Assembly (NCBI GenBank): GCA_958295775.1
Contig: CATQHC010000002.1
Span: 779,663 to 843,662, forward strand
Source: Chloroflexota bacterium
GTDB lineage: Bacteria > Chloroflexota > UBA11872 > VXOZ01
Length of the DNA: 64,000 nucleotides
Reading direction: 5' to 3'
Shown here: piece after piece, positions 2,644-51,020 of the stretch
How positions within the stretch are numbered: position 1 is the stretch's first letter
Layout of the letters: each line of letters starts with the position of its first letter
Translations under genes and position numbers: made by a program
Notes under the pieces: generated by a model
Told to the model about the DNA's origin: nothing
The model's input: the letters and a program-made list of their open reading frames with translations, nothing else
The model's database searches: none

Positions 2644-4086
2644 ATGTCATTTGCACGAAGCCGTATTACGCGTCGACACATGCTCGCCGGTACTGGTGGC
2701 ATTCTTGGCGCGATCGCGCTGGCAGCGTGCGGCACCGCCATGCCGGCCGATTCCGGTGAGATGCCGGAGCAGGAAGACGAAGCGCCCGCCGCCGAAGAAC
2801 AGCAGCCCATGGAGAAGGTCACGGTATCCGTCAGGTGGATTTCCAACGACCTTACGCTGGTGGAACCATTTTACGAAAAGCTCATTGTCGCGAAATTCAA
2901 CGAAGCGTACCCAAACATCGACCTGGATTGGGCTGGTGATACCTACCGCGACACCATGAATCAGCTCAACACGCAGCTTGCGGCCGGCGAGGCACCCGAC
3001 GTGTTCCACAACGACGGGGTCTTCTTCGCCCGAAATCGCGACGCAGGGTACGCCCGCGCGATCACTGAATATATCCAGAGAGATTCCAGCCAGCTTCAAG
3101 GTATTCGCGGCCCTGAATTCTTTACTGATGAGAAGCAGGACGTGTATGGCGTCTCGATGAACATCGGTGGTGCGGCCTTCGCCTACAATACCGACCACTT
3201 CGACCGCTTCGGCATCAACCGCCTGCCGGCTGAAGGCATCGACTGGAACCCGGATGACGGCGGCACACTCCTGGAGATCGCACAGGAGATAACCGGTCGA
3301 GGGGAGAACGAAGACCCCAAGATCTGGGGCTTTTTCAACAATAAGCAAATCACCTTCGACGTGCTAGGTATGCTGATACAGAACGGCACCAACTTCCTCA
3401 CGGATGACTACCGTCGTTCACGGATGCACGAGCCGGAGTTCATCTCGACTATTCAATTCCTGTGGGACCTGGAGTTCAAGCATCGGGTCTCGCCAAGTCC
3501 TGATGACGTTGATGATCTGAACGCCTCGTTGCCGGAAGGCTCAACTTACCACTCGCCATTTGCCTGGCAGCGGGCTTCCATGATGAATCTCGGAATCGGC
3601 CAGTCCGGTTCCTGGGGTTCGCCGGATCCGGAGAGCCTGCCCATCGTCGCCGTACAGTATCTCAACGGCCCGGAAAATAGCGTGGTGCCTGGCGGCGGTC
3701 GCATCGTAGAGATGTGGGGCAGCACTGAGGTGCCCGATGAGGCTTGGGAAGTCATGAAGTTCCCCTTGATCGACCACGAGGTACAGGTGGCAGTCTTCAC
3801 GATCCTGCGTGACGGGTTGCCGGCCAATACCAACACGTGGGGCGATTCACGTCTGCTCGAGCGCAGCGGCCGGCCGCCGCGTGAGGTGGAAGCCTACATG
3901 GCGCCTCACCTGGAAGGCTTGGGCCAGTACTGGCAAGTAAACGGAGCCTGGCGCGAGTGGGTCGGGGCGTTCCGCAGCCAGCAGGCTCGTGCGTGGGCAC
4001 AGGAAGTCACCGTCGAGGAAGCCATGCAAACTGCAAGCGAACTCGCACAAGTTGTCCTTGACGAGTACTACGCCGACCAGGGATAG
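2644..4086 (+). CDS. ABC transporter family 1 extracellular solute-binding lipoprotein
   Basis: This is the 480-residue substrate-capturing lipoprotein of a carbohydrate-type ABC importer. The N-terminus carries a twin-arginine-like SRITRRHML followed by a hydrophobic segment and the lipobox LAAC (Cys29), then an acidic Glu/Ala linker to about residue 55. The remainder is the SBP_bac_1 two-lobe fold (FNEAYPNIDL, AAGEAPDVF, GGGRIVEMWGST). The start is supported by a GAGGGA-type ribosome-binding site. No permease or ATPase gene lies nearby, so it must share membrane subunits encoded elsewhere or be a solitary receptor. A truncated paralogue sits 1.9 kb upstream. Substrate is unknown; sugar is the family default. 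Confidence 0.9.
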   Translation: MSFARSRITRRHMLAGTGGILGAIALAACGTAMPADSGEMPEQEDEAPAAEEQQPMEKVTVSVRWISNDLTLVEPFYEKLIVAKFNEAYPNIDLDWAGDTYRDTMNQLNTQLAAGEAPDVFHNDGVFFARNRDAGYARAITEYIQRDSSQLQGIRGPEFFTDEKQDVYGVSMNIGGAAFAYNTDHFDRFGINRLPAEGIDWNPDDGGTLLEIAQEITGRGENEDPKIWGFFNNKQITFDVLGMLIQNGTNFLTDDYRRSRMHEPEFISTIQFLWDLEFKHRVSPSPDDVDDLNASLPEGSTYHSPFAWQRASMMNLGIGQSGSWGSPDPESLPIVAVQYLNGPENSVVPGGGRIVEMWGSTEVPDEAWEVMKFPLIDHEVQVAVFTILRDGLPANTNTWGDSRLLERSGRPPREVEAYMAPHLEGLGQYWQVNGAWREWVGAFRSQQARAWAQEVTVEEAMQTASELAQVVLDEYYADQG

Positions 4087-48598: not shown

Positions 48599-48606
48599 CA
48601 CACTTG
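48599..48606. repeat. left target-site duplication of the IS element
   Basis: CACACTTG is repeated exactly at 51013-51020. Eight bases is the usual duplication length for IS1595-family elements. Confidence 0.85.
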
Positions 48607-48631
48607 GGGAATTACAAGATATAGGCTTGAC
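48607..48631 (+). repeat. left terminal inverted repeat (25 bp)
   Basis: Exact inverse of 50988-51012. Its inner end CTTGAC supplies the -35 box of the transposase promoter. Confidence 0.93.
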
Positions 48632-48655
48632 TACCTGTAGAGCGTTTGTTACAAT
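48627..48655 (+). promoter_or_regulatory. transposase promoter embedded in the left inverted repeat
   Basis: TTGACT (48627-48632), 17 bases and TACAAT (48650-48655), each 5 of 6 to consensus. Predicted start near 48662. Confidence 0.65.
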
Positions 48656-48674
48656 ATATTTAGGAGGTTGAGAT

Positions 48675-48899
48675 ATGCTCTACTCAGAGTCAGGAATGTT
48701 GGGCGTTGGGTACGCCGATTCCACAACTTCCATTGACCAGTGGAGTGTTGCTGTTGCTCGTTCCTTCGCTTGTGCCACAGTGGTAATCTTCGGCTCTTTT
48801 GGGATGAAGCGGCTTGCGAGCTCCCACGCAATCTCCATCTTGCGCTTTTCGTATTCCCATCTGTCTCCCATGATCGCTCTCCCTGGAGGTGCTGCATGA
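48675..48899 (+). CDS. possible 74-residue upstream frame coupled to the transposase
   Basis: An ATG at 48675 follows AGGAGG (48662-48667) by 7 bases, and the frame's TGA overlaps the transposase ATG (ATGA at 48896-48899), the arrangement of a translationally coupled leader frame. Against it: the encoded sequence (MLYSESGMLGVGYADSTTSI...) has no recognisable domain, reads less like a protein than the opposite strand, and fully overlaps the minus-strand frame at 48680-48871. It may regulate transposase translation rather than encode a functional protein. Confidence 0.3.
   Translation: MLYSESGMLGVGYADSTTSIDQWSVAVARSFACATVVIFGSFGMKRLASSHAISILRFSYSHLSPMIALPGGAA
48680..48871 (-). CDS. possible 63-residue charged helical protein in the IS element
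   Basis: The minus frame from ATG 48871 encodes MGDRWEYEKRKMEIAWELAS and so on, a charged helix-rich small protein with normal codon use. AGGGAG lies 7 bases before the ATG, a strong ribosome-binding site. I do not recognise the family. It is antisense to the possible upstream frame of the transposase, between the left inverted repeat and the transposase. Whether it is expressed, for example as a regulator of transposition, is not shown by the sequence. Confidence 0.5.
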   Translation of the reverse strand: MGDRWEYEKRKMEIAWELASRFIPKEPKITTVAQAKERATATLHWSMEVVESAYPTPNIPDSE

Positions 48900-49753
48900 A
48901 TCTTATCGCCATTGTACAACAGTTCCCTACCCAGGAAGCCTGCATTGAGCACTTGGAACGCATCAAGTGGAACGGCACGCCGGTTTGCCCCTACTGCGAC
49001 AGCGAGAAGGTCGCCCGCAAGAAAGAGCGCAACCATGTCGGCCGCTGGAATTGCCGTAACTGTCTCTCCAGCTTCAAGGTCACTTCCGGTACCATCTTCC
49101 AGGGCACGAAGATACCCCTACAAAAGTGGTTCGCGGCAATCGCTATTCTGCTGAACGCCAAGAAGTCAGTGAGTAGCTGCCAGCTTGCCCGTGACCTGGA
49201 GCTCACACAGCAAACGGCCTGGTACATGGCGATGCGCATCCGCAAGGCTATGACTGACGACGGTGCCCTGCTGCGCGGGATCGTTGAGGCGGATGAAACC
49301 TACATCGGCGGCAAGCCGCGCGGTCCGAGACTCCCCGGCCAACGCCGCGAGAGCAAGAAGACTCCCGTGATTGGCGCCGTCGAGCGCGGCGGCAAGGTCA
49401 GAGCCGAGCCAGCGCCCCGCGTGACCACCAAGCTCATCAACTACTTCCTGCGCCGCAACGTGGACCCGCGCTCGATGCTCGTGACCGACTACTTCTCCGG
49501 CTACAACGAAGCCCGCGACTGGATATACCACGAGCGCATCAATCACAGCATCGAGTACGTGGACGGCCACGTGCACACGAACACGATAGAGGGCTTCTGG
49601 GCGTTGGTGAAGCGGGCTATCTCCGGCCAGCACCACCACTACACGGTCGAACACGCCGGCATGTACATCGACGAAGCGAGCTACAAGTACAACACGCGCA
49701 AAAGCGAGACGCCCTGGAATGACTTCATGCTGCGGGCTTGCGGCGTGGGTTGA
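48896..49753 (+). CDS. IS1595-family (ISXO2-like) DDE transposase
   Basis: The 285-residue transposase moves the surrounding element. Residues about 25-60 form a zinc ribbon (CPYCDSEKV...WNCRNC). A helix-turn-helix-like region follows (SSCQLARDLELTQQTAWYMA), then the ISXO2-like RNase H-fold domain with acidic residues Asp133 (EADETYIGGK), Asp198 (VTDYFSGY) and Glu232 (NTIEGFWALVKR). The start at 48896 follows GGAGG by 6 bases; an upstream in-frame ATG adds unrelated residues. The frame is intact, so the element may be active. Confidence 0.93.
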   Translation: MNLIAIVQQFPTQEACIEHLERIKWNGTPVCPYCDSEKVARKKERNHVGRWNCRNCLSSFKVTSGTIFQGTKIPLQKWFAAIAILLNAKKSVSSCQLARDLELTQQTAWYMAMRIRKAMTDDGALLRGIVEADETYIGGKPRGPRLPGQRRESKKTPVIGAVERGGKVRAEPAPRVTTKLINYFLRRNVDPRSMLVTDYFSGYNEARDWIYHERINHSIEYVDGHVHTNTIEGFWALVKRAISGQHHHYTVEHAGMYIDEASYKYNTRKSETPWNDFMLRACGVG

Positions 49754-49896
49754 TAGTGCCACGGACGCCGCGTTTTCATGACAAGCTCAAAGATAGGTGC
49801 GTCGAGAGCTGCGAGTTCAAGTCGGGCTTTAAGCTCCTGACGGCGCAGGCAGGCGTCACACTTGACGCACGAAGGACAAGACGGTACTGTAGACAC
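49681..49896 (-). CDS. possible 71-residue zinc-finger-like protein in the IS element
   Basis: The minus frame from GTG 49896 encodes VPSCPSCVKCDACLRRQELK and further helical sequence, with two CxxC pairs resembling a small zinc finger. AAAGG lies 8 bases before the GTG. Its last third is antisense to the transposase 3' end. It lies just downstream of the HExxH gene, beyond the hairpin at 49933-49958. Antisense overlap and the lack of a known family keep confidence low. Confidence 0.35.
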   Translation of the reverse strand: MSTVPSCPSCVKCDACLRRQELKARLELAALDAPIFELVMKTRRPWHYQPTPQARSMKSFQGVSLLRVLYL

Positions 49897-49932
49897 AGCA
49901 CGTGCCTTTCTACTCCTAACGGAGTGGTGGTT

Positions 49933-49967
49933 GGGCTGCCAGTTTCCGCTGGCAGCCCGTTTGCTTT
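49933..49967 (+). terminator. terminator between transposase and passenger gene
   Basis: GGGCTGCCAG (49933-49942) pairs perfectly with CTGGCAGCCC (49949-49958) around a 6-base loop, followed on the plus strand by GTTTGCTTT. It insulates the two convergent transcription units of the IS element. Confidence 0.85.
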
Positions 49968-49990
49968 AACTGCCCCTATTCTAACATGTA

Positions 49991-50815
49991 TCAGCGACAC
50001 AAAATGTCGTGCGAGTGTCCTTGGTCGAGGGGATGGCTGCCGTGTCTGTGGTACCCGCCTATTTGGACTACGCAGGTTCCGCCGCTGCCGGCATTCCCCA
50101 TCTGCTGAATGCGGCGCTCCAGGGCTGCGATACGTCGTTCCAGTGCCGCAATGCGAGCATCCGCGCTCTGCTGCGGAGCGGGCGCAGGTGTGGGCGCTGG
50201 CTTGGGTGCGGGTGCTGCTGTCTGCCCTAGTCTGCAGTAGTCTTTGAGGAGCTCGCGCATGAAGTTGCTAAACCGATTGGCTTCTTTGCCGTTTTCAATG
50301 TCTCTATAGTCCTGACGAAACAACCAAGCAGTATAGTTGGCGTGTCCTATCCTGGGGTTGTCCGTGTCGGGGTGTCCTGCCTCCCCATACCTTTTGCTCC
50401 ACCACCCCGCCGCCCTCTGTTCGGCCAAGTACTCATTCGTAAAGCAATAATCGAGGGCCCATCCCTCTGCATCCCTCGGCCTGGCCCCGTACTTCGTCCA
50501 GGGATAGCCCGCATGGAACAGCTCGTGCACCAGCAGGTAGGCGATCACTTCGAGCGGTTGGTGGCGCATGGATTCGTCAACCGTGATGGTGTTCGTGGGA
50601 ATGTGGTACTGCGCCAGGTGCTCGATGTTGCCGAAGGTGAACTTTGTGCCTTTCGTGGTCACTGCACTATATTCACCATAGACGTGCCCCGGCCAGGTTT
50701 CCTCGATCATGTTCAGGGCACCTTGCAGGCGCGGGTCGATTTCATCGGCGTGTAGCGGAGTTGCGGAGAGGAGTAGAAGAATGAGTACGAGGAAGATTGC
50801 GGCGATGCGTGGCAT
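49991..50815 (-). CDS. secreted HExxH metalloprotease-like passenger protein of the IS element
   Basis: The 274-residue protein has a signal peptide (IAAIFLVLILLLLSATPLHA, cleavage probably after Ala23). The central domain has a zinc-protease-like motif His97-Glu-Leu-Phe-His101 followed, 15 residues later, by Glu117 in AEGWALDY, a plausible third metal ligand. A Pro/Ala linker (APAPKPAPTPAPAPQ) leads to a short coiled coil (ARIAALERRIAALERRIQQM) and a His-rich C-terminus ending HSHDILCR. The start at 50815 is set by AAGGGGG just upstream. It has its own promoter in the right inverted repeat and a structured leader. Neither the exact family nor a substrate is recognised; extracellular proteolysis is inference. 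Confidence 0.8.
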   Translation of the reverse strand: MPRIAAIFLVLILLLLSATPLHADEIDPRLQGALNMIEETWPGHVYGEYSAVTTKGTKFTFGNIEHLAQYHIPTNTITVDESMRHQPLEVIAYLLVHELFHAGYPWTKYGARPRDAEGWALDYCFTNEYLAEQRAAGWWSKRYGEAGHPDTDNPRIGHANYTAWLFRQDYRDIENGKEANRFSNFMRELLKDYCRLGQTAAPAPKPAPTPAPAPQQSADARIAALERRIAALERRIQQMGNAGSGGTCVVQIGGYHRHGSHPLDQGHSHDILCR

Positions 50816-50962
50816 AGAGCCCCCTTGTAGAGATGAGAAGGTGTAACTGCCTAGATTGCACCAGAGCGCAACCCCACAAGGGGACAGGAGCATACACCTG
50901 TCTCTCTCGCTGGCCGTGAGGCACACGGCACGGAGGTTGCGCTGCTCAATCTAGGCAGTTAC
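50816..50962 (-). ncRNA. structured mRNA leader of the passenger gene (three-way junction with anti-ribosome-binding strand)
   Basis: On the minus strand GTAACTGCCTAGATTG (50962-50947) pairs with CAATCTAGGCAGTTAC (50858-50843), and GCGCAACC (50942-50935) with GGTTGCGC (50873-50866). They enclose two hairpins: GCCGTG/CACGGC (50929-50924, 50918-50913) and GACAGG/CCTGTC (50902-50897, 50888-50883). The junction strand CCCTTGTGG (50882-50874) can instead pair with CTACAAGGG, which contains the ribosome-binding region (about 50830-50822). Competition between these states could control translation. The same inverted repeat could form a DNA cruciform. Confidence 0.6.
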
Positions 50963-50963
50963 C

Positions 50964-50992
50964 ATCCTAACAAGCAGCTATCTATGCGTCAA
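50964..50992 (-). promoter_or_regulatory. passenger promoter embedded in the right inverted repeat
   Basis: On the minus strand TTGACG (50992-50987), 17 bases and TAGGAT (50969-50964). The -35 box lies mostly within the terminal repeat. The predicted start near 50957 falls in the first helix of the structured leader. Confidence 0.55.
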
Positions 50993-51012
50993 GCCTATAT
51001 CTTGTAATTCCC
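50988..51012 (-). repeat. right terminal inverted repeat (25 bp)
   Basis: Exact inverse of 48607-48631. Confidence 0.93.
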
Positions 51013-51020
51013 CACACTTG
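51013..51020. repeat. right target-site duplication of the IS element
   Basis: CACACTTG, identical to 48599-48606. Confidence 0.85.

Follow-up and report, generated by a model that had tools for sequence, protein, structure and literature searches.

The stretch that precedes the passenger gene of an IS1595-family element in the genome of a Chloroflexota bacterium forms a genuine RNA structure, conserved in evolution and located at the start of an mRNA, and it belongs to a structured RNA family that has no Rfam entry, is partly mobile and occurs in one Chloroflexota class. The window, that is, the whole stretch of 64,000 nucleotides that was analysed, carries this leader on its minus strand (Table 1). 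Including the window leader, we count at least 26 distinct leaders (at least 25 others), spread over 12 of the 41 genomes searched in this class. Their common plan consists of a promoter, the helices P1 and P2, a helix b/b' of about 13 bp and, usually, a second long-range helix a/a'; the ribosome-binding site (RBS) always lies in b' and the start codon follows a few nucleotides on. The window leader has the same plan, with P1 and P2, a b/b' helix that holds the RBS, a/a' and a start codon right after b'. Judging from the pairing and its conservation, we consider it probable that the leader is a cis-acting translational lock in which a pseudoknot would sequester the RBS.

Table 1. Features of the IS1595-family element and of its structured leader in the window (window positions; strands of the leader are given as RNA).
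Feature	Position	Strand	Remarks
Complete IS1595-family element, 2406 bp	48607..51012		8-bp target-site duplication CACACTTG at 48599-48606 and 51013-51020
IS1595 transposase, 285 aa	48896..49753	+	PF12762 E 3.5e-32, NF033547 E 3.1e-53
Passenger gene (exported protein of 274 aa, HELFH motif)	49994..50815	-
Structured leader (5' UTR)	50816..50963	-	z -5.33; matched by model R2
-35 box TTGACG	50987..50992	-	read from sequence; TTGAC within the right terminal inverted repeat
-10 box TAGGAT	50964..50969	-	read from sequence; 17-nt spacer; conserved in leaders L003 and L028
P1 5' strand	50947..50962	-	16 bp with P1 3' strand, 100% complementary; swap test z -11.7
P1 3' strand	50843..50858	-	C-G to U-A change relative to L205
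P2 5' strand GCGCAACC	50935..50942	-	8 bp; swap test z -8.8
P2 3' strand GGUUGCGC	50866..50873	-	two double compensating changes relative to L205
P3 hairpin, 6 bp (50929-50924/50918-50913)	50913..50929	-	variable among relatives
P4 hairpin GACAGG/CCUGUC, 6 bp (50902-50897/50888-50883)	50883..50902	-	partly conserved among relatives
b, anti-RBS strand CCCCUUGUGG	50874..50883	-	22-leader covariation test, 0/500 shuffles; swap test z -5.9
b', RBS strand CUACAAGGGG	50821..50830	-	ends beside the start codon at 50815
a, GAGAGAGA(C)AGGUGU	50894..50908	-	overlaps P4 5' arm; swap test z -9.7
a', ACACCUUCUC(A)UCUC, linker between P1 and RBS	50830..50844	-	U-A to C-G change relative to L205

The element that carries the leader encodes an ISXO2/IS1595-type DDE transposase and shows both terminal inverted repeats (a perfect repeat of 27 nt, flank included, at its two ends) and the 8-bp target duplication, which assigns it to the IS1595 family. 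Contig C9 of this genome carries transposase, passenger and leader once more, in an identical copy; beside this copy, a 474-aa frame (L018, G000:C9:960762-961289) contains a relative of the passenger with 39% identity. The passenger of the window belongs to no Pfam or NCBIfam family and has no relative among PDB sequences. The -35 box upstream of the leader draws its TTGAC from the right terminal repeat; the left one (window 48605-48675) likewise provides TTGAC as the -35 box of a transposase promoter (TTGACT...TACAAT). The earlier note placed the predicted transcription start at the 5' end of the leader. A promoter can indeed be read just upstream, and since its -10 box ends at 50964 the predicted start should lie some 6-7 nt on, near 50957, so that the outermost 5 bp or so of the 16-bp helix are probably outside the transcript. 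The conserved part of P1 in relatives likewise begins some 5-7 nt past the -10 box. In most of the members inspected by eye a promoter-like -10 box stands a few nucleotides upstream of P1, which makes the leader a 5' UTR over its whole length.

The helices of 16 and 8 bp and the two 6-bp hairpins described previously were found at the same positions, and the leader folds with a minimum free energy of -79.8 kcal/mol, a stability equalled by none of 200 shuffled sequences (z -5.33). A coding reading of this stretch was rejected: the frame of the passenger is open upstream to 50926, yet its signal peptide begins at 50815, and relatives keep the pairing, not the codons. An attC site of an integron was discarded as well, no attC core motif being seen by eye. 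Beyond these local helices, the strand b pairs with the RBS strand b' over 10 bp, or more if P2 frays, and this complementarity was matched by none of 2000 shuffled tails and by 0.5% of the cases when the leader was shuffled instead; the anti-RBS strand proposed in the earlier note is therefore borne out. That note had not contained a second long-range pairing, a/a' (p=0.0015 against shuffled tails). Because a and b are in the same order as a' and b', the two long-range helices cross, and because a shares the 5' arm of P4, this hairpin and a complete a/a' helix would exclude one another.

The family came to light from the genome of the window itself, in which a further IS1595 element, with a transposase diverged to 82-83% identity, is present in three copies that fall into two variants. 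This element has the same promoter and a leader whose stem sequences are unrelated (z -5.4), and the passenger behind it is another one, coding for a membrane protein of 53 aa. A related IS1595 leader from another species of the genus (L028, z -4.2) precedes a lipoprotein gene. When the first IS leaders were aligned, 13 contiguous pairs between the RBS and the inner strand were present in every sequence, though both strands differ. A covariance model (R1) was built from two or three divergent IS leaders; run on the 41 class genomes, it detected members before different genes. The second model, R2, was built from ten leaders with the window leader left out; it detected more than ten further leaders beyond its training set and recovered the window leader at 18 bits (E 0.002). 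Finally, a model with the b/b' helix as its sole structure (R3) added four more convincing leaders. Weak matches of the models were not counted when they were coding, tRNA-associated or devoid of b/b' (L144, L145, L163, L180, L181, L200, L193); L141 looks degenerate, and antisense matches arise from the palindromic stems. Among 400 genomes sampled evenly across the phylum no true leader was found outside the class, the structure being absent from the two weak R2 matches there (L180 and L181), and viral contigs contained distant transposases only. The window has no Rfam match at gathering level, nor have the leaders, compared at three type A loci and in 11 other members, any at E<=1. In the open-access literature, where most subscription journals are absent, we found no earlier description of such a leader family.

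The evidence that the pairing is maintained through compensating changes comes from covariation. For P1/P2, 87.1% of the cells are paired and both partners have changed in 12 pairs; covariation reaches 0.421 versus 0.225 after shuffling and collapses if the partner strand is slid by one column. For b/b', 95.5% of the cells are paired in 22 leaders and seven pairs show double changes, with 19 double-change cells for 6.4 expected. Neither value was attained in 500 shuffles, counts that are not to be taken as probabilities since the leaders share ancestry. Natural variants of b/b' include CUCCUUGCGG/CUGCGAGGAG, CUCCUCGCGG/CCGUGAGGAG, CCCCCUCACGGUC/GACCGUGAGGGGG and CCUCCUAUCCGG/CCGGAUAGGAGG, and those of a/a' include ACACGAUUGAACAAU/AUUGUUUAAUCGUGU in L160, CAGUCGGAC/GUCCGACUG in L146 and CAGCGGGAUG/CAUCCCGCUG in L143. 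An alignment-free swap test on 19 leaders, in which the strands of each leader were compared with strands exchanged between leaders, gave the same picture: own strands pair better in all four helices (z values in Table 1). With b/b', swapped strands still reach -20.7 kcal/mol versus -24.9 for own strands, because every RBS is purine-rich, and part of this complementarity is thus trivial. The nearest relative of the window leader (L205, from genome G004, 89% identical) differs from it by one compensating pair in P1 (C-G to U-A), two in P2 (G-C to A-U and A-U to G-C) and one in a/a' (U-A to C-G). Among the four members found through b/b' alone, P1/P2 is significant in three, not in L203, and a/a' in two, not in L203 or L204. 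Homologues whose helices lack compensating changes had been named in the earlier note as what would refute its reading; instead, covariation is seen for P1, P2 and the anti-RBS helix in sets of 10 to 22 leaders, a result that supports the reading.

The leader is not tied to one type of gene or to one type of locus. Most downstream genes code for small membrane proteins or for exported proteins, which belong to unrelated families, and the only Pfam matches among them are tRNA_anti-like and, weakly, DUF5067, DUF6782 and SprT-like. An exported domain that has no Pfam family, marked by the motif HLW/HLY...GGDTRAL or LGDTRAL, recurs in several of the genes behind leaders and in a homologue of the passenger that is a fusion (L165, L206, L220, L187, L138). 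L205 lies on a decayed IS1595 copy before another exported gene, whose product shares with the window passenger only the C-terminal metallopeptidase-like part (31% identical). Conversely, a passenger 78% identical to that of the window (L137, G004:C60:53745-54581) has lost the structured leader; it retains the RBS strand CTGCAAGGGGGC with a promoter-like sequence just upstream. The other cargo of L205 and the leaderless passenger of L137 together indicate that the leader is modular, one leader type being combined with different cargo. At another locus (L216, G005:C5, 3780-6550), perfect terminal repeats of 28 bp enclose leader and cargo in an IS1595-like element; its transposase is only 37% identical, and the same leader type stands before a 90-aa membrane protein. 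An IS1595-type transposase or a fragment of it was found nearby in eight of 20 further loci tested, several members lying within 3 kb of one; where there is no transposase match, the neighbours are ordinary chromosomal families and one phage terminase. The leader had been described as an element of an IS1595 passenger gene, which holds for some copies, but others are apparently chromosomal and the RNA is thus not specific to IS1595.

How the lock might operate can be sketched from these pairings. Transcription would begin at the base of P1, just past the promoter whose -35 box lies in the IS end, and P1 and P2 would close co-transcriptionally, presenting an inner loop with strand b. Once the tail is made, strand b would capture the RBS strand b' through some 13 bp; the linker a' could, in most members, also pair with the neighbouring a, creating a candidate pseudoknot across P1-P2. 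A 30S subunit could presumably not bind before b/b' opens, and this sequestration is expected to lower translation. P4 and a/a' may alternate, and their competition would be the likely control point, where a protein, a standby ribosome, a ligand or temperature could act; we presume that some trigger relieves the block. A broader reading, which we put forward only tentatively and regard as rather doubtful, is that one lineage-specific RNA switch constitutes an IS1595-borne mobile regulon of scattered exported and membrane accessory genes, built around an RNA sensor, in which the alternation of a/a' and P4 would answer one common signal.

The earlier note had seen in the leader a translational control element, possibly ligand-dependent; covariation supports the former, and we obtained no positive support for a ligand-binding riboswitch. 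A metabolite- or ion-binding riboswitch, of which P1 to P4 would be the aptamer and whose ligand would open or close b/b', would nonetheless account for the place in the 5' UTR, the junction architecture and the RBS sequestration, all typical of translational riboswitches, for the conserved structure that sequesters the RBS in 22 leaders and for the presence of one structure before many genes. Aptamers usually show invariant columns at unpaired loop positions, whereas the invariant and nearly invariant columns of the 22 leaders fall almost all in b and b', although the alignment of the core is poor. P3 and P4 vary, the downstream genes have no common pathway and the leaders lack Rfam matches at E<=1, and we therefore hold a riboswitch to be unlikely. 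The comparison with the preQ1-II, SAM-II and SAM/SAH translational riboswitches is instructive: like the structure proposed for the leader, they form a 5' UTR pseudoknot with the RBS in its 3' strand, but the leader has far longer helices (an RBS helix of about 13 bp, long P1 and P2), no evident conserved unpaired core and unrelated downstream genes. That pairing alone is conserved, not sequence, would also agree with an RNA thermometer, or with a plain kinetic silencer that holds cargo expression low without any specific regulator, and an IS would presumably benefit from quiet cargo. Yet the stability of RNA thermometers is usually far below that of a b/b' helix of about -25 kcal/mol together with a P1 of 11-16 bp, and a silencer would not require such prolonged maintenance of P1, P2 and a/a', which extends to apparently chromosomal loci; we give such explanations little credit.

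Insertion sequences do use RNA in their own control: in IS10, IS50 and IS200, RNA structures hide the RBS of the transposase. The leader resembles them in that the RBS of a gene in an insertion sequence is hidden by RNA structure, and it differs in that the control would fall on a cargo gene that has a promoter of its own, and in that the RNA also occurs outside IS. Could the palindromes instead act as DNA, as a transposon end or a recombination site, or block transcripts from outside, as in IS10/IS50? The leader does adjoin the terminal repeat and several members are close to a transposase, but no transposase match lies near roughly half of the tested members, covariation reaches the RBS and ends at the start codon, and the promoter lies inside the element, upstream of the structure, which makes this explanation very improbable. 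Another parallel is the tisB +42 mRNA, a type I toxin mRNA with a highly structured leader in which the RBS is sequestered and a 5' pseudoknot is essential (PMC7708055). On this model ribosomes would load at an upstream standby site beside the 5' pseudoknot while the RBS is sequestered, and an antisense RNA or cleavage may regulate; several downstream genes do encode small hydrophobic proteins of 53-90 aa. Others encode exported proteins of 180-470 aa that are not toxin-like, and the cargo is not toxin-like in general; moreover, the tisB pseudoknot is near the 5' end with the RBS elsewhere, whereas in the window family the RBS is itself a strand of the putative pseudoknot. A tisB-like mode of action thus seems improbable to us, and we retain the pseudoknot lock on the RBS as the preferred reading. 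Structured RNA candidates from Chloroflexi or near transposases have been proposed before, for example Chloroflexi-1 (RF01698) and Transposase-resistance (Weinberg 2010, PMC2864571). The former is an Rfam family without match to the leaders; the latter has no Rfam number in the table of that paper.

In other phyla, IS1595 relatives, many of which carry methylase cargo, are mostly without a structured leader, and no R3 match was obtained at their IS1595 loci. Another structured leader class (z about -7) was observed at the right ends of Poribacteria IS1595 elements (L042, L050, L068, L106), with a stem GACCAAAC.../GTTTGGTC and a segment TGGGTATCCC that pairs with the downstream GGGATACCCA, conserved in four elements. 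The leader of an IS1595 passenger in Latescibacterota (L059, about 3560-3700, minus strand) is also strongly structured (z -5.8), and the 3' strand of its P1 is likewise complementary to the RBS region. In L037 (COS1_bin_21, about 2750-2850), the strong fold near the IS1595 right end is due to a tRNA-like sequence inside the element.

Taken together, these results add to a poorly studied class, with sponge-derived members, a family of structured RNAs that covaries strongly and is absent from Rfam. Some insertion sequences of this class transport cargo behind this conserved RNA, a probable lock that also stands before apparently chromosomal genes. The crossing long-range helices, with a hairpin arm that has two partners, define a concrete and testable candidate switch. 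If the reading as a mobile regulon were true, insertion sequences would move ready-made, RNA-controlled cargo.
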